From a virus: a stretch of 22,592 nucleotides of DNA. A program made the translations under genes and the position numbers. Below, piece after piece: positions 170-12,602 of this stretch. Position 1 is the first letter of the stretch. The number at the start of each line of letters is the position of its first letter. Below the pieces are notes generated by a model. That model was not told where the DNA came from. It saw only the letters and a list, made by a program, of their open reading frames with translations, and searched no databases. Location of the stretch: the IMG/VR virus record IMGVR_UViG_3300031841_000888, positions 1 to 22,592 of that record; one strand, given 5' to 3'.

Positions 170-274
170 TTATCCACAACCAAATTACAATATTTATCCA
201 CAGCTTTGTTGCCTGTGGATGAATTGTGGATATCCTGTGGATAACTTTTTAGCCTGTGGATATCTTGTGGATAA
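170..274. repeat. Cluster of seven DnaA-box-like 9-mers
   Basis: The consensus DnaA box is TTATCCACA. Perfect copies occur at 170-178 and 194-202 (plus) and, as TGTGGATAA, at 236-244 and 266-274 (minus). One-mismatch copies occur at 214-222 (TGTGGATGA), 225-233 and 255-263 (both TGTGGATAT). The minus-oriented boxes include two tandem pairs (225/236 and 255/266), each spaced exactly 11 bases start to start, with the pairs 30 bases apart. An AT-rich tract lies next to the first box. The arrangement resembles bacterial oriC or plasmid origins. A DnaA-titrating or transcription-control role is the main alternative to an origin. Confidence 0.8.
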
Positions 275-1477: not shown

Positions 1478-1646
1478 TCGAGTTGAATTTCATGTCGAGA
1501 AACAGATCCAGCAGGCGCTTAGTGCGCTAAAGATTGCTTCAGATCATGTGAACGACACAGCGATTGAGGATGATGAACTTGATGCGATTAGCAGTTTAAT
1601 CAAATCAACCATCAATAAAGTTGAATTTTATTTAGGGAAGTTTTAA
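1470..1646 (+). CDS. Hypothetical 58-aa helical protein
   Basis: ATG at 1470 with AGGAGA (1453-1458) 11 bases upstream; it ends with TAA at 1644-1646, whose last base is the A of the primase-helicase ATG. The protein is predicted to be two helices (residues about 6-28 and 36-54) joined by an acidic loop. No family is recognised. The TAATG join to the primase-helicase gene suggests coupled translation and a replication-related role, which is inference. Confidence 0.65.
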   Translation: MDNRVEFHVEKQIQQALSALKIASDHVNDTAIEDDELDAISSLIKSTINKVEFYLGKF

Positions 1647-3259
1647 TGGCATTTATCGACACCCATACAGCCTGTCCCAAGTGCGACAGCAGTGATGCGT
1701 TTGCACTGAACGACAACGGCTGGGGAAAGTGTTTTAGCTGTGGTGCAAATGTACCACCAGAAAACAGTAACACAGCGGAGGTTATACATATGCCTAGTAG
1801 GGGCGTTAAGGACACCACGAGATCGTCCAGCACAGGGGCTTACAATGCGTCTCAGGGGGTAAAATACACCAACTTAGCAGTACGCAAGATTAACTCTAAC
1901 GTATGTGAGTTCTATGGCGTAGGTTTTAGAGGCACAGATCTTGTGTTCCCCTACAACAATAACCAAGCCGCCAAAGTTCGTATCAACAATGAGAAACGGT
2001 TCAAGACTGAAGGGGATTGGACAGCTTCTGAGGCCTTGTTCGGACAGGACAAGTTCCCTGCCGGGGGCAACACTGTTGTTGTCGTTGAGGGTGAGCTTGA
2101 TGCGCTGTCAGCCTATCAGATGCTAGGTGTCCGTAAGGTCGCTGTGGTGTCTGTTCGTAATGGCGCAGGCTCTGCATTAAAAGACTGTAAGGCCAACTAC
2201 GAGTATCTGGACAGCTTCAAGCATGTTGTGTTCAACCTCGATAGTGATCCTGCCGGGTTAAAAGCACAGGCCGACTGCGCCGAACTGTTTAGTCACAAGG
2301 CTAGCTGTGTTGTCCCTGCTAACGGCTACAAAGATGCGTCAGACTACCTGCAAAGCAATCGAACAGCAGACTACTTGAACGCTGTCAAGAACGCTGAACG
2401 GTGGACTCCTGACGGCATTGTAGCCGGTATCAACCTGTACGATGACGTGATGAAGCCGGTGCAACGGTCAGATGTTGACTATCCATTCGGAGGCCTGAAC
2501 CAACTAACGTATGGCATTCGCAAAGAAGAGCTAGTCACGGTAACTGCCGGGTCTGGTCTAGGTAAGTCTCAGTTCTTACGAGAGATAATTTGGCATATCT
2601 TGCAGAATACAGAGGCCAACATCGGCATGATGTTTCTGGAAGAATCAACTCGTAAGACCGGCCTATCTTTGATGTCTCTGGCGGCAAATAAGCCTTTACA
2701 CCTACCCGACTGCAAGTCAACGCAACAGGAGAAAGACGATGCGTTCAATCAAACCCTTGGCACAGATCGTTTGTATCTGTTCGATCATTTTGGCTCCAGT
2801 GACGTTGATAATATTGTCAATCGGGTACGCTACCTTGCCAAGGTTGCCAGATGTGATTATGTGTTCGTGGATCATATTTCTATTATTGTCTCTGCTCAAT
2901 CTAACGGAGACGAGCGGAAAGCAATAGACGAGATCATGACCAAGCTCCGTATGCTTGTGCAGGAGACCGGCATCTCGCTTGTCTGCGTATCGCACTTGAA
3001 GCGCCCGGACAGCCGTGGTCATGAAGAAGGTGCGGCAACGTCTTTGTCACAGCTACGAGGCTCTGGCTCGATTGCACAGCTTTCCGACATGGTTATCGGT
3101 CTTGAGCGTGATGGGCAGTCTGACGATGCTATCAAGCGTAACACCACATATGTACGTGTGCTAAAGAATAGATTCTGCGGCACAACTGGAAAGGCTTGTG
3201 CGCTTCTGTATAGTCTTGACACCGGGCGTATGTCGGAGGTTGATGAGGAGGCTCTGTAA
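1646..3259 (+). CDS. T7 gp4-like DNA primase-helicase
   Basis: This bifunctional replisome enzyme (537 aa; T7 gp4 is 566) unwinds DNA 5'-3' as a hexamer and makes RNA primers for the lagging strand. The N-terminal zinc-binding domain has C10/C13 and C29/C32. A TOPRIM domain follows with VEGELDAL (147-154, E148) and the metal-binding NLDSDPAG (D199, D201). The RecA-like helicase has Walker A GSGLGKS (302-308), Walker B YVFVDH (D409), the sensor histidine in VSHLK (H450), and the RGSG motif from 471 leading to a probable arginine finger near R487. All key residues are present. The gene abuts the next one by TAATG. Identification is firm. Confidence 0.95.
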   Translation: MAFIDTHTACPKCDSSDAFALNDNGWGKCFSCGANVPPENSNTAEVIHMPSRGVKDTTRSSSTGAYNASQGVKYTNLAVRKINSNVCEFYGVGFRGTDLVFPYNNNQAAKVRINNEKRFKTEGDWTASEALFGQDKFPAGGNTVVVVEGELDALSAYQMLGVRKVAVVSVRNGAGSALKDCKANYEYLDSFKHVVFNLDSDPAGLKAQADCAELFSHKASCVVPANGYKDASDYLQSNRTADYLNAVKNAERWTPDGIVAGINLYDDVMKPVQRSDVDYPFGGLNQLTYGIRKEELVTVTAGSGLGKSQFLREIIWHILQNTEANIGMMFLEESTRKTGLSLMSLAANKPLHLPDCKSTQQEKDDAFNQTLGTDRLYLFDHFGSSDVDNIVNRVRYLAKVARCDYVFVDHISIIVSAQSNGDERKAIDEIMTKLRMLVQETGISLVCVSHLKRPDSRGHEEGAATSLSQLRGSGSIAQLSDMVIGLERDGQSDDAIKRNTTYVRVLKNRFCGTTGKACALLYSLDTGRMSEVDEEAL

Positions 3260-3627
3260 TGGACTTCTCACGGAGTCGCATGGGAGACCTTGCAGAATAC
3301 TACGCTGTCACATGGCTCTGGGATCAAGGCTACGAGGTGTTCCGCAACTGCGGTTGTGATGGCCCGGTTGACTTGATTGTCATGGACGGACATGGTAAAA
3401 TGTTTCTTGTCGATGTGAAAACAAAGTGGGACACCGAACGGCCAGATCAGGCTCATGGTGCAGTACGTACCGACCATCAGGTTAATATTGGCGTACAGAT
3501 ACTTTTGTTTGATAGACACACACGTAAATGCGAATGGGTAAAACACAGAGATGCGACAACTTTTGATAGATATCGAGACCAACAGCACCCACAGCTTGAT
3601 TTGGCTAGCAGTGACGCAGGATGTTAA
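3259..3627 (+). CDS. PD-(D/E)XK nuclease, Holliday-resolvase-like
   Basis: This 122-residue protein fits the small PD-(D/E)XK nuclease fold: an N-terminal helix with E13 (GDLAEYYAV), then GPVDLIV (D38) and FLVDVKTKW (D52, K54), the D-X13-D-X-K metal-binding core. Similar proteins are found as Holliday junction resolvases and intron-associated endonucleases. Its position between the primase-helicase and DNA polymerase suggests resolving or degrading branched DNA. It starts at the TAATG junction and its last 25 residues are encoded by bases shared with the start of the polymerase gene. The exact substrate is unknown. Confidence 0.7.
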   Translation: MDFSRSRMGDLAEYYAVTWLWDQGYEVFRNCGCDGPVDLIVMDGHGKMFLVDVKTKWDTERPDQAHGAVRTDHQVNIGVQILLFDRHTRKCEWVKHRDATTFDRYRDQQHPQLDLASSDAGC

Positions 3628-5206
3628 AACAGAGGAAGTGATATGTCATACAGATCCATCAACACTAGCTCCGCTGGTAAAGGAATACGATCAAATAATC
3701 GGTCACAACTTAATAGGTTTCGATGCTCCAGTATTGCGGAAAGTCTGGAACATTGGGATACCGAAATCGAAAGCGGTAGACACCTTGGTTTTATCACGTC
3801 TTTTGAACCCCGTCATAGAAGGCGGTCACAGCTTGAGAGCATGGGGTAACCGCTTAGGCGACCAAAAGATAGAATTTAATTTTGAGGATTTTGATCATGG
3901 GCTTACGCCAGAGATGCAAGAATATTGTGTACAGGACGTTAAACTTACCCGAACTCTGTTCCTTCACTTACAGACCGGATTTTCCAATTGGAAATCGCCG
4001 CAAAAAAGTATATTACTGGAACACGAAATCGCAGTCATTTGTTCCCAGCAAGAGCGAGAAGGCTTTAGGATGGATATCGACCAGACTGAAACTCTTAGAG
4101 CTACGCTTGCGGATCGAATGGGCGATATTGAAGATTGTGTTCAGTCTGTATTCCCGCCGATTGTTGAAGAGCGCTGGAGTGAGAAAACAGGCAAACGGTT
4201 AAAAGATCGTGTGACCGTGTTTAATCTGGCTTCCCGTAAGCAGATTGCTGAACGTCTGATGGGGCTTGGATGGAAGCCTACTAAGCACACAGAGAAGGGT
4301 CAACCTATCGTAGACGAAAGCACCCTTGAGAATATTGACATCGCACAGGCACAGTTGATAGCAGAGTATTTAATGCTACAAAAACGTGTCGGTATGATCG
4401 ACTCATGGCTTAAACATGTTGACCGGGATACTAACCGGGTTCACGGCGGCATTATTACTAACGGAACTATAACCGGTCGGATGACCCACCGAAACCCCAA
4501 CATGGGACAGGTTCCAAGCGTGACCAAGCCGTATGGCAAACAGATCAGATCGCTCTGGACTGTAGATAGCGGAAACGTGCTTGTAGGCACAGACTTGTCT
4601 GGTATTGAATTGCGCTGTCTTGCGCATTACATGCAAGACGATGATTGGACAGAGGAGTTGCTGAATGGCGATATACATCAAAAGAACGCAGATGCGGCAG
4701 GCGTTACCCGACCACAGGCTAAGACTCTTATCTACGCCACGCTCTACGGCGCAGGGCCGAGCAAAATTGGTAGTATCGTCAATGGCGGTGCTAGGGAAGG
4801 GCAGAACATACTTGAGCGCTTCTATAAGGGAACCCCTGCGTTATCTAAACTCATGGAAAAAGTTAAAAAGGTGGCGGTCAACGGGTATGTACCCGGGTTG
4901 GACGGTAGACGGATTGCAGTTAGGTCAGAACATGCCGCCCTTAATTCACTCTTGCAGGGATGTGGTGCTATTATTGCCAAGCAATGGTGTATTGAAGCCC
5001 ACAAGACTTTCAAAGCACAGCGGATTCCAGTCCAACAGGTTGCGTTTGTGCATGATGAAATCCAGATTGAAACACCGGAGGAATATGGTGAACAAGTTGC
5101 GCAAATCATGTGCGATGCGGCCTCACAAGCCGGGATTACCTTGGGCTTTCGATGCCCAGTAGATGCCGAATCAAAAATCGGTAAAAATTGGTTTGAAACA
5201 CATTAA
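3551..5206 (+). CDS. Family A (T7-type) DNA polymerase with proofreading
   Basis: This replicative polymerase (551 aa; T7 gp5 is 704) keeps the 3'-5' exonuclease domain with D7/E9 (DIET), HNLIGFD (52-58) and YCVQD (D129). The polymerase domain has motif A DLSGIELR (348-355), motif B R387-K391-Y395-Y399-G400, and motif C HDE (501-503). The residue equivalent to E. coli Pol I Phe762 is Tyr395, as in T7. There is no 5'-3' nuclease domain; a separate exonuclease gene lies downstream. The start is fixed by the exonuclease motif at residue 7, so the 77-base overlap with the upstream nuclease gene is real. The shorter length suggests a missing or reduced thioredoxin-binding thumb loop, which is inference. 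Confidence 0.95.
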   Translation: MRQLLIDIETNSTHSLIWLAVTQDVKTEEVICHTDPSTLAPLVKEYDQIIGHNLIGFDAPVLRKVWNIGIPKSKAVDTLVLSRLLNPVIEGGHSLRAWGNRLGDQKIEFNFEDFDHGLTPEMQEYCVQDVKLTRTLFLHLQTGFSNWKSPQKSILLEHEIAVICSQQEREGFRMDIDQTETLRATLADRMGDIEDCVQSVFPPIVEERWSEKTGKRLKDRVTVFNLASRKQIAERLMGLGWKPTKHTEKGQPIVDESTLENIDIAQAQLIAEYLMLQKRVGMIDSWLKHVDRDTNRVHGGIITNGTITGRMTHRNPNMGQVPSVTKPYGKQIRSLWTVDSGNVLVGTDLSGIELRCLAHYMQDDDWTEELLNGDIHQKNADAAGVTRPQAKTLIYATLYGAGPSKIGSIVNGGAREGQNILERFYKGTPALSKLMEKVKKVAVNGYVPGLDGRRIAVRSEHAALNSLLQGCGAIIAKQWCIEAHKTFKAQRIPVQQVAFVHDEIQIETPEEYGEQVAQIMCDAASQAGITLGFRCPVDAESKIGKNWFETH

Positions 5207-5231: not shown

Positions 5232-5306
5232 CTTAGAGTGGCCGAATGGTGAGGCAACAGACTGCAAATCTGTTTTATGTGGGTTCGACTCCCACCTCTA
5301 AGTCCA
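5232..5306 (+). tRNA. tRNA-Cys (GCA) with encoded CCA
   Basis: All four arms fold. The 7-bp acceptor pairs CTTAGAG (5232-5238) with CTCTAAG (5296-5302). The D arm runs 5241-5255 with a 3-bp stem. The anticodon stem is ACAGA/TCTGT around loop CTGCAAA (5262-5268), anticodon GCA at 5264-5266. The variable loop is 5 bases and the T arm has a GTGGG/CCCAC stem with loop TTCGACT (5284-5290). The discriminator base is T (5303), which is the bacterial cysteine identity element U73, and CCA is encoded (5304-5306). It has its own promoter and lies between the polymerase and SSB genes. Confidence 0.95.
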
Positions 5307-5331: not shown

Positions 5332-5748
5332 ATGGAAAACACCCAGCGTGTTAAAATCAAAGCCGACATTATGTGGGCTTATCTCGACCGTAAGAACGAG
5401 ATGTCAAACAAGTACCAAGTGGACTTGTGCAATCTCTCCGATTCTGCTGTCTCTGCTTTAGAGTCTATGGGGCTGACAGTGAATCAAAAAGATGAGAAGG
5501 GTTATTATATAACCTGTAAGTCTAATAACTCCATTCGTGCATACGACTCCAATGGAGAAGTGCTTGAGGGCGTTGGCGTTGGAAACGGCTCTCAGGCTGT
5601 TGCGCTTGTCGGGTATTACGATTGGTCTTGGAAGGCCAAAGCCGGTCGCAGTGCGTCACTTAAAAAGCTTGTCATTACCGACCTAGTGTCTTTTGATGGC
5701 GATGCAGGTGACACTGACGTTGCAATGGATGACGACGAGATTCTATAG
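5332..5748 (+). CDS. Single-stranded DNA-binding protein, T7 gp2.5-like
   Basis: This 138-residue protein begins after AAAGGAG (5320-5326). It resembles the OB-fold SSB family of short-tailed marine phages, with the motifs DIMWAYLD, KYQVDLCNLSD and GYYDWSWKAKAG, and it ends in a strongly acidic tail (DAGDTDVAMDDDEIL), the typical site by which gp2.5 and SSB proteins contact polymerase and helicase. It would coat lagging-strand DNA and coordinate the replisome. It lies directly after the tRNA and ends by TAGTG overlap with the exonuclease gene. The family call is by recognition of motifs and context. Confidence 0.85.
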   Translation: MENTQRVKIKADIMWAYLDRKNEMSNKYQVDLCNLSDSAVSALESMGLTVNQKDEKGYYITCKSNNSIRAYDSNGEVLEGVGVGNGSQAVALVGYYDWSWKAKAGRSASLKKLVITDLVSFDGDAGDTDVAMDDDEIL

Positions 5749-6431
5749 TGCAACACGCTCTTATAGACGCTGACATCCTGAACTATCGTATCGGGTTCGC
5801 AACCAACAATGAGTCTGACGAGGTGGCTATCAGAACGATGGCCTCCTTTTTAGAGGACTTGTTGATTCTTGATCTGCCAGAGGTTCAGACGTGGGAGCTA
5901 CATTTAACCGGGAAGACCAACTTCCGAAACAATGTAGCTCGCACAGTGCCTTATAAGGGCAACCGAAAGGCTGAAAAGCCAGTGCATTATCATCTGCTCC
6001 GTGAGTACCTTGAGTTATCGTGGGGCGCTAGCGTCTCAAAAAATATGGAAGCAGATGATGTTTTAGCTATCCGGGCAACCGAACTAGGTGACGCTAGTGT
6101 GATCGTTAGTCTCGACAAAGACCTCGATCAGGTTCCCGGGTGGCATTATAATTTTGTAAAGCGTACACATTACAATGTTACCCCGGAGCAAGGGCTGTTG
6201 CGTTTTTATATGCAAATGCTTACAGGCGACCGTGTGGACAATATTAAAGGTGTACGAGGTATCGGTGATAAAAAGGCAGAGAAGCTCCTCACAGGCAAAA
6301 CAGAGCCAGAGATGTGGGATCTATGCGTAGAGCTTCTAGGGGCTGACAGAGCAATGGAGAATGGACACTTGTTGTACATGCTAAGACATTATGAAGACTC
6401 GTTTACCCCGCCAAAGGAACTTTGTACATAA
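5748..6431 (+). CDS. 5'-3' exonuclease (FEN/PIN fold, T7 gp6-like role)
   Basis: This 227-residue protein starts with GTG at 5748, overlapping the SSB stop (TAGTG). It has the structure-specific 5' nuclease motifs: an early aspartate (ALIDADI, D7/D9), a basic arch with R60 and YKGNR (69-73), the acidic cluster MEADD (100-104), SLDKDLD (D123, D125) and TGDRVDNIKG (D161, D164), followed by a helix-hairpin-helix (VRGIGDKKAEKLL). It would remove RNA primers and degrade host DNA, supplying the activity missing from the phage polymerase. Family assignment is firm. Confidence 0.92.
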   Translation: MQHALIDADILNYRIGFATNNESDEVAIRTMASFLEDLLILDLPEVQTWELHLTGKTNFRNNVARTVPYKGNRKAEKPVHYHLLREYLELSWGASVSKNMEADDVLAIRATELGDASVIVSLDKDLDQVPGWHYNFVKRTHYNVTPEQGLLRFYMQMLTGDRVDNIKGVRGIGDKKAEKLLTGKTEPEMWDLCVELLGADRAMENGHLLYMLRHYEDSFTPPKELCT

Positions 6432-10448: not shown

Positions 10449-10462
10449 CACTCCAGTGACTT

Positions 10463-10486
10463 AGCCCCTGTATAGGGGCTTTTTTT
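10463..10486 (+). terminator. Rho-independent terminator, end of rightward operon
   Basis: AGCCCC (10463-10468) and GGGGCT (10475-10480) form a 6-bp GC-rich stem with loop TGTATA, followed by a run of seven T (10480-10486). On the minus strand no T-run follows the stem, so it should stop only rightward transcription. Its tail touches the stop codon (10485-10487) of the converging minus-strand gene. Confidence 0.9.
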
Positions 10487-12602
10487 ATTGCTCTTCCGTA
10501 TTTCGACTGAGGTAGATAGATGGAATACCCCCCGTCAGATAAATCCGTCCTAACAACGCCGCTCCCTGTAACGCTTTTATCTGAGCCGGTTTAAGGTCTT
10601 TGAATTCACCCTTTAACGACTTAATTAGCGCTATCCTAGCATCCGGGTTGTTCGCAAAGTACGCCGCCATTTTTGGATCAAAGCGTCCTTTCCTGAGTAG
10701 GTCACCGACCTTCACAGCTAGCTCACCCAGATAACGACCTTTAGGGCCAAGAGCCGCACCTAATGCTTCCGCACCAGCTTTGCCTTGCCGGTAAAAACTT
10801 GTAACGTCTGCAAAGTCTTTAAACACCCGGTCGTTTCGAGCAAAGACACCCTGAAGCTGTCGTATAAACCCATCAAAGGCATTCACCGCACCTTTATCAC
10901 CAAACAACAATTTGTTCTTACGCAAGTCCTCTACCGCTCTTTGTAGCTTGGCAAGATCAATTAATCCTTGCTCGTCACGTAATCCTCTGAATGTATCCTC
11001 AAAGATAAGTTGCTTGACCTGTCCCCACAACTCTGGATCTTCCTTGCGTATCAAGCTGGTCAAGATTTCAATCTGACCTTTACGTGTTGGGGTTGATGTG
11101 TCTTGTGTAATAGCCCTCAGTTGCGCTAAAAGCTGGTCAGGCGTTGCAGAATCGAGGTTAGCGATACCGAACTTAATAAACGATCTATTAGACTCTACAT
11201 TCAATGCATCCAGACGGGCATTAAAGTTGTCTCTGGCGTTTATTAAAGCCTCTGCCGCCTCTTTCTGCGGGCCAACTAAGTTTTCGTCTTTAATAACGCC
11301 TTTGAACGCATATAGAAGCTCACGAGCCATTGCCTTAGCAACGCCCGGAGTGAGGTCTTCAAACCCCGGCCCTGACCCCTTCCACGCAAGATCACCAAGC
11401 TCCGACATAATATCTTGAATTTCATTAGCAGTTAAGTCCCGTTGGTTGCCGTTCTCGTCAAACAAGCGCCGGGTAAAGCCTTCCAAGGCTAGTCTAGCAG
11501 ACTCAGCCCGTGCTTTAGTAAAGTCATCTGCATCGACCGGAACAGCCCGATACTTTTCCGCAATCGCATCAAAAGAGTTTAATACGCTGGTCATGTCAAA
11601 GTATATGTCATCCGGTATTTTATCAAAGTCAGCTTTGTTCCGGGCTTTGAAATCTTCAATACGAGACTTTTCCCATTTATTAAACGCTTGCGCTACACGC
11701 TCAACCACAACCGCAGGATCAGCCTGTCCTGTAGCCTCTGCCAGTTTCTGCAATTGGTTTTCCACGGCTCTTTGACGCTGACGATCTAAAAATATCCATG
11801 ACTCTTGATTGAAGCCTCCCAAGGCTTCTACACGCCGCCTACCGGTTTCTTCTACGGCCAACGTCTCCCTAGCCTTAGCTAGCGCATTTAGTTGCTCCTG
11901 AGATCCGTCAGGTAGCTCTAGAGCCGCACGATACTCTTGCATCCCACGGGTCTCTTGAATACCGGTCTCTTCTGTTAACTGTCTGCCAAGGGCTAGTGCG
12001 TCAGAGTCTTGCTTATCAATCTTTGAAATTTCAGGCCCAGCTTTCAAAGGATTTATTTTTTTACCTGTACGCCCGGTAGGAAGCACGGAAATGCCAACGC
12101 CTAATGCGGCATTTTCTTCTGACGCTAGGCCACCTGCCGCACCTTGAATCAGAGTTCTAACTAATTTTGTCGGGCCTCCGACTACCGCTTCGCCGCCATA
12201 ATAAAGCCCACGCTCCCACCAAGGCTTACTGTCTGGATCTTCTAGTTTATAATAATCACCAAACAAAAAGTCACCAACCGCCTCATAGCCTTTACCCATT
12301 TCAAGTATAGGCTCATTAGTTAGCGGATTTATCACAGGCTCGTCACCTGTTAAGTATTGATATCCTCCATATGCTAACGCAGGAAGCTCATACGGGCCAG
12401 AAACAAAACCTGCCGCCCCTGACAGCAAACTTCTACCGGCTGTCTCAGCGACACTTAATGCACGATCTCCAACATCCTGCATAGTCATAGAAGGCTGTAT
12501 CGGCTGTACCGGAGGCGCACCAGCCGGTTGACGTGCGGTTAGTTGTTCTGCCGCAATCTGTCTTAGTTGCTGTAGCTGTTGCTGACTTAGAGGTTGTGAC
12601 AT
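10485..12602 (-). CDS. Large internal virion / ejection-type protein (705 aa), function unknown
   Basis: The last gene of the leftward virion block, 705 residues, starting by TAATG overlap with the 445-residue gene and with GGTGGAG upstream. The N-terminal 40 residues are Gln/Pro rich. A small-residue, glycine-rich stretch (about 50-80 and 145-175) could be membrane-active, and the rest (about 200-700) is charged and helical. Composition and position next to two similar proteins resemble T7 gp15/gp16-like or P22 ejection proteins. No catalytic motif is recognised, so this is an inference from context. Confidence 0.55.
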   Translation of the reverse strand: MSQPLSQQQLQQLRQIAAEQLTARQPAGAPPVQPIQPSMTMQDVGDRALSVAETAGRSLLSGAAGFVSGPYELPALAYGGYQYLTGDEPVINPLTNEPILEMGKGYEAVGDFLFGDYYKLEDPDSKPWWERGLYYGGEAVVGGPTKLVRTLIQGAAGGLASEENAALGVGISVLPTGRTGKKINPLKAGPEISKIDKQDSDALALGRQLTEETGIQETRGMQEYRAALELPDGSQEQLNALAKARETLAVEETGRRRVEALGGFNQESWIFLDRQRQRAVENQLQKLAEATGQADPAVVVERVAQAFNKWEKSRIEDFKARNKADFDKIPDDIYFDMTSVLNSFDAIAEKYRAVPVDADDFTKARAESARLALEGFTRRLFDENGNQRDLTANEIQDIMSELGDLAWKGSGPGFEDLTPGVAKAMARELLYAFKGVIKDENLVGPQKEAAEALINARDNFNARLDALNVESNRSFIKFGIANLDSATPDQLLAQLRAITQDTSTPTRKGQIEILTSLIRKEDPELWGQVKQLIFEDTFRGLRDEQGLIDLAKLQRAVEDLRKNKLLFGDKGAVNAFDGFIRQLQGVFARNDRVFKDFADVTSFYRQGKAGAEALGAALGPKGRYLGELAVKVGDLLRKGRFDPKMAAYFANNPDARIALIKSLKGEFKDLKPAQIKALQGAALLGRIYLTGGIPSIYLSRNTEEQ

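Follow-up and report, generated by a model that had tools for sequence, protein, structure and literature searches.

In this study, we found that a viral DNA record carries seven DnaA boxes packed into 105 bp (positions 170 to 274) next to its least stable DNA, and our favoured reading is that the region 147 to 274 acts as a host-DnaA-dependent opening region within a divergent early control region. We put the probability of this reading at roughly 0.4; it is preferred to control of the early promoters by DnaA, which comes second, and to a decoy for DnaA, which comes third. The window, that is, the whole stretch of DNA analysed, is an IMG/VR record that is entire at 22,592 bases, yet it represents a partial genome, probably that of a lytic marine phage of the podovirus type.

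A scan allowing at most one mismatch found seven TTATCCACA boxes between 170 and 274, four exact and three with one mismatch, and only three one-mismatch boxes in the remaining ~22.4 kb. Box 1 (170 to 178) and box 2 (194 to 202) are exact and lie on the plus strand, and the right-hand five are opposed to them on the minus strand. These are box 3 (214 to 222, TCATCCACA, one mismatch), box 4 (225 to 233, ATATCCACA, one mismatch), box 5 (236 to 244, TTATCCACA, exact), box 6 (255 to 263, ATATCCACA, one mismatch) and box 7 (266 to 274, TTATCCACA, exact). The rescan agreed with the number and quality of the boxes given in an earlier note on this DNA, but the two pairs at exactly 11 bases described there are in fact three 11-base intervals (214-225-236 and 255-266) with a 19-base step between the two sets. 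The largest cluster per 105 bp was three boxes in 1000 Markov shuffles of the whole record and again three in 20,000 shuffles of bases 1 to 420; the clustering of seven boxes in this space is far above chance. With a contig end close by, an artefact of assembly, for instance a joined fragment of a bacterial oriC, was considered, but the chance that artefact or random clustering explains the array is negligible, given the shuffles and the four contigs (L002, L003, L005 and L006) in which this array recurs with the same genes around it. This conserved synteny rules both explanations out.

The analysis confirmed the AT-rich tract that the earlier note had placed beside the boxes. In a nearest-neighbour profile of the record in 50-bp windows, the stability minimum fell at 147 to 196, a candidate DNA-unwinding element that overlaps boxes 1 and 2, so that the record's site has the unstable AT-rich tract beside its boxes that is looked for in an oriC-type origin. 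Box 1 is directly 3' of this tract. The corresponding early-site tract is among the least stable 0.8% in G001 and G003, and at the same early site (site E) the unstable tract is also kept in G004 to G006, the three box-less relatives checked.

The array lies between two promoters read from the sequence. The probable early promoter on the plus strand (342 to 370) has a weak -35 element TTGTGT at 342 to 347 and an extended -10 element TGGTATAAT with TATAAT at 365 to 370; it looks like a sigma-70 promoter, scores below the threshold of a consensus scan, and its TGGTATAAT element is conserved in the alignment of relatives. On the minus strand, a -10-like TATAAT at 59 to 64, also conserved in the alignment, would serve as the leftward promoter of the divergent gene, a homologue of L003 8144-8491. 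The stretch between the array and the early promoter differs in length among the close relatives. Three GGGACTG repeats on the plus strand (305 to 356, starting at 305, 327 and 350, with a pitch of 22-23 bp) begin between the array and the early promoter, and a degenerate fourth copy follows at ~391-400. These repeats are absent elsewhere in the record, occur at the same site in G001, G003, G004 and G005, and are common to relatives with and without DnaA boxes at the early site. Spread over 305 to 400 around the early promoter, they are possible sites for a phage regulator or initiator. A search for further early-site relatives by this repeat gave mostly single matches, which are probably due to chance.

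The early genes are located on the plus strand and begin with a gene for a 61-aa protein with CxxC pairs (406 to 591; phrog_10364, unknown function). They include a T7 gp4-like primase-helicase (1646 to 3259; phrog_239, E 6e-162; Pfam DnaB_C and Toprim_2), a T7 gp5-like family A DNA polymerase (3551 to 5206; phrog_17, E 3e-141; Pfam DNA_pol_A), a T7 gp6-like 5' exonuclease (5748 to 6431; phrog_107, with weak Pfam 5_3_exonuc matches), nrdA and nrdB, and a tRNA-Cys gene (5232-5306) lies between the polymerase gene and a gene for a 138-aa protein. The tail genes are on the minus strand. Portal and terminase genes were not seen in the record; in the relatives they are located past its left end. 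The T7-like replisome named in the earlier note was confirmed, with primase-helicase, polymerase and exonuclease all present. The contrast with T7 drawn there was incomplete, as the group seems to be without a T7-type RNA polymerase. A PF00940 search of the incomplete record and of 36 related ones, several of them longer than 30 kb, gave no match above the cut-off, and the positive control, three Berlinvirus/Eapunavirus phages, was detected at E ~1e-110. Of the features by which Autographiviridae/Autotranscriptaviridae are recognised, the gp4-like primase-helicase and gp5-like polymerase are present, and the phage-encoded single-subunit RNA polymerase was not found in that search. A phage-encoded DnaA acting on its own boxes was also considered, and rejected, as there was no DnaA C-terminal domain in 35 records.

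Bases 1-1500 showed no DNA similarity to known phages. Among named phages there is no close relative, the primase being at most 49% identical to that of Pelagibacter phage HTVC115P. A relative's portal shows only a distant likeness to those of HMO-2011 and similar phages. The search for the large-terminase gene (terL) in bacterial genomes gave only two loci, a 24-kb contig in a 'Euryarchaeota' MAG that is probably mis-binned and a weak Sulfurimonas match, and no host was assigned from them. The GC skew flips near the site, but gene direction flips there too, and because of this confounding the skew was discarded as a sign of an origin.

The same array is found at the same place, before the 61-aa early gene, in the four relatives whose primases are 84-86% identical to that of the record (L002, L003, L005 and L006). 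The alignment, which includes L002, L003 and L005, shows the AT tract joined to box 1, then box 2 and the opposed boxes, and AT-richness next to box 1 is kept. Single letters differ, although the boxes are mostly kept as boxes: box 1 is invariant in the four aligned sequences, box 2 is a one-mismatch box in L002, L003 and L005, and box 6 is exact in L002 and L003. On the other hand, the slightly more distant G004 to G007, whose primases are 80-82% and whose 148-aa gene products are 89-96% identical, have no box cluster. The check for box conservation proposed in the earlier note gave a mixed picture: the closest relatives share the seven-position layout and the AT tract, but the boxes are absent in G004 to G007 and labile on the terL tree. 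Because close relatives have lost the boxes, the role of the array must be dispensable or replaceable.

A second and denser array is present in L003, L005 and L006, located 2.6 kb further out and upstream of the 148-aa gene (site T), which brings L003 and L005 to two arrays and about 14-16 boxes each. The 148-aa gene is presumed to encode the small terminase only because it precedes the genes for lysozyme, large terminase and portal, and it has no family match. The site T array has no AT tract touching it, and in many members of the group site T lies between leftward early genes and rightward packaging (late) genes. A scan with the large terminase yielded 80 loci, and upstream of the packaging genes, arrays of at least three boxes were found at 18 of the 41 non-redundant T sites selected in this way, against 0.5% of shuffled regions. 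The spacings between same-strand boxes at these T sites were 11 (51 cases), 22 (32 cases) and 33 bp (24 cases) and nearby values, and none fell at 14-17 or 35-37 bp. In the same way, exact triples across viruses at large had the 11-bp spacing in at least 120 contigs, against four contigs with a 15-bp spacing. A cooperative row of proteins bound along a single face of the helix would require such phasing, and the pattern of spacings points to a phased, probably cooperative DnaA array. The arrayed weak sites in E. coli oriC are likewise 2 bp apart (PMC6070618). Since the closest relatives retain the layout and phased arrays turn up in many other phages, the binding of DnaA to the array is predicted with high confidence.

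In the mechanism that we infer, host DnaA would first occupy the exact boxes and then spread cooperatively across the boxes 11 bp apart. The bound DnaA would help to melt the adjoining AT-rich tract, where the phage primase-helicase could enter and begin replication together with the phage's own polymerase. The primase-helicase gp4 of T7 needs no loader, and the same is assumed here by analogy. In favour of such an opening region, the strongest evidence is that box 1 stays joined to the AT tract in the relatives, the tract being the least stable DNA in this record; the oriC-like layout, the lack of a detected phage RNA polymerase and the variable distance from the array to the promoter agree with it. 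As in an E. coli-type oriC, there are several boxes in opposed sets with 2-bp gaps and an unstable AT-rich tract alongside. Unlike oriC, all seven phage boxes are consensus or one-mismatch boxes, whereas the same scan of E. coli oriC with a margin found two exact and two one-mismatch boxes and otherwise weak sites; the phage has a T7-like replisome instead of DnaB/DnaC, and its boxes are dispensable in close relatives. The many consensus, high-affinity boxes speak against an opening region, as oriC arrays consist mostly of weak sites, and so does the lack of an adjoining AT tract at site T. The primary origin of T7 is an AT-rich tract near promoters that is used with gp4 and gp5, and the region studied here resembles it in having such a tract near promoters together with a gp4-like primase-helicase and a gp5-like polymerase. 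It differs in that DnaA boxes replace the phage promoters and no phage RNA polymerase was detected.

What weighs most against an obligate origin is that the boxes are missing from close relatives whose replisome is nearly the same. When mapped onto a 58-row terL tree, the DnaA label required 18 changes, of which 13 were forced by well-supported branches, and this number is hardly below that for shuffled labels (mean 19.4). In the near-identical pair L283/L280, the difference is due to box decay. The idea of a host-type origin raised in the earlier note is plausible, though unproven, but the group as a whole is unlikely to depend on an obligate DnaA origin, because relatives with 80-82% identical primases are box-less and the array changed about 18 times on the tree.

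The density of consensus boxes at 170 to 274 is also a feature looked for in a titration locus of the datA type. The datA locus of E. coli, which has two consensus boxes and four with one misfit, is reported to titrate DnaA (PMC5835720), and the phage array resembles it as a dense cluster with consensus boxes. By analogy, the arrays might absorb host DnaA as phage copies rise, halting new rounds of host replication and sparing nucleotides, and arrays of other kinds would titrate other regulators. The dense packing of consensus or near-consensus boxes, the 14-16 boxes of L003 and L005, and the occurrence of arrays in varied gene contexts from which they are easily lost would suit this explanation. 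However, one incoming genome brings only ~7-16 boxes, so the effect would be likely only after phage replication, and the tight link to the unstable tract would not be needed. The phage array also differs from datA in its location on a multiplying genome with an unstable tract and promoters adjacent. We consider a decoy rather unlikely as the main role.

The places held by DnaA arrays in some phages are occupied by other host-regulator-like sites in others. At site T, G004 to G007 (loci L204-L210) have three palindromes GCACC-N5-GGTGC per phage (for example GCACCATCTTGGTGC), ~200-270 bases ahead of the gene presumed to encode the small terminase, where their relatives have DnaA arrays, and there is one further palindrome of this form at site E. 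These palindromes match the NtrC binding consensus. In G009 (L213), five TTGGCATGATAGTTGCA-like elements with the sigma-54 -24/-12 pattern are found at site T, and four Fur-like AATGAGAATCATT repeats lie upstream of the early promoter at site E (~10450-10700). The NtrC-, sigma-54- and Fur-like patterns pass the thresholds in at most 0.35% of shuffles, and by their consensus matches these sites can be called NtrC-like, sigma-54-like and Fur-like. Many loci combine DnaA arrays with NtrC- or sigma-54-like sites. We also observed sigma-54-like TTGGCAYGNNNNTTGCW arrays upstream of the presumed small terminase gene in G009 (L213), L248, L249, L270, L278, L119, L126, L314 and others, with elements that mostly point away from the packaging genes. 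At the same place, the DnaA-array-less phages L257, L258, L241, L286 and L302 have other repeat arrays, some with a 15-bp pitch.

These sites raise the possibility that DnaA, like NtrC, sigma-54 and Fur in the related phages, is a host regulator of the divergent early promoters, the array being an operator and not an origin; the phage would then read the state of its host. Such a switch would account for the different regulator-like sites at the same places, for their frequent sharing of a region with DnaA arrays, and for the position of the packaging-side site between leftward early and rightward late genes. However, the variable length between array and promoter fits poorly with contact activation, and the NtrC, sigma-54 and Fur calls are consensus matches only. 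The early promoter looks like a sigma-70 promoter, and NtrC does not normally act on such promoters. Taken together, we regard a transcription switch as doubtful, though the first alternative to consider after the opening region. A few phage promoters under host regulators are already known, and cyanophage genes use host PhoB boxes (PMC10976474). Those Pho-box promoters are similar in that phage DNA carries host-regulator sites, but the Pho boxes sit at individual phage promoters, and here phased arrays occupy a control region.

Similar arrays were also found outside this group. Blastn with the L003 array as query pointed to the T7-like phages P483, VB_Ship_A7, nasanit and phiEap-1, in which the arrays lie near a packaging gene, mostly in non-coding DNA. 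The arrays of these enterobacterial phages contain 5-9 boxes and were located at KP090453 37247-37389 (L318), PV245933 4070-4196 (L321), both ends of MK685668 (L317, L322) and both ends of KT321314 (L323, L324). As in our record, the boxes are spread over ~100-150 bp and are partly 11-12 bp apart. The Berlinvirus/Eapunavirus arrays differ in their location at both genome ends where both were checked, and an RNA polymerase is encoded by each of the three phages tested. The direct terminal repeat of phiEap-1 (195 bp) contains five exact boxes, present at both ends, and eight boxes lie near either end of the VB_Ship_A7 genome. An exact 221-bp terminal redundancy (1-221 and 36118-36338) that contains a seven-box array was also seen in G019 (L220, L221), where it may represent a physical terminal repeat. 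In phages outside the group, the genes most often recognised next to arrays are those for terminases of several families, for a RecE-like exonuclease and for the replication-initiation family phrog_942; such neighbourhood is weak evidence of function. In L174, L350, L364, L403, L405, L411 and L429, a DnaA array lies 93-159 bp from a phrog_942 gene. A major head protein gene (phrog_514) is also beside the array in L411, and for this reason the phrog_942 loci may be microviruses.

The terminal arrays suggest that DnaA at or near a genome end could aid end processing, protection or packaging. The repeats of phiEap-1 and G019, the boxes near both ends of VB_Ship_A7 and the terminase neighbours in unrelated phages point in this direction. 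Yet the array of the record belongs to the early control region and, going by the relatives, is 2.6 kb away from the packaging-side site, and the terminase neighbours may merely reflect where non-coding space is located. A physical terminus beside the presumed small terminase gene should cause contig ends to gather there, but only weak enrichment was seen. A terminus or packaging element is thus improbable for the array described here.

DnaA-box clusters at origins and titration loci are already known (PMC5835720), and phage DnaA boxes were predicted by Ori-Finder in one phage paper (PMC11512268). In the open-licence literature, we found no reports of phages that combine a T7-like replisome with helically phased DnaA arrays, none of an exchange between DnaA arrays and NtrC-, sigma-54- or Fur-like sites, and no papers linking Berlinvirus or HMO-2011-type podoviruses with DnaA. 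We propose, at a little less than even odds, that in a large uncultured group of marine podoviruses, and perhaps more widely among phages, the early/late control region serves as a variable panel of sites for master regulators of the host. Phased DnaA arrays, NtrC enhancers, sigma-54 elements and Fur boxes would be quickly gained, lost and exchanged on it, tying the start of the phage programme to host replication and nutrient state.

For phages that have a T7-like replisome and no phage RNA polymerase, the phased host-DnaA arrays offer a concrete and testable candidate for how replication starts. Because many other phages carry such arrays, whether host DnaA takes part in phage growth is now open to experiment, and the similar arrays in culturable phages of E. 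coli, Shigella and Enterobacter provide laboratory models. If the arrays are switches or decoys, these phages would be reading or disarming the replication clock of their hosts.
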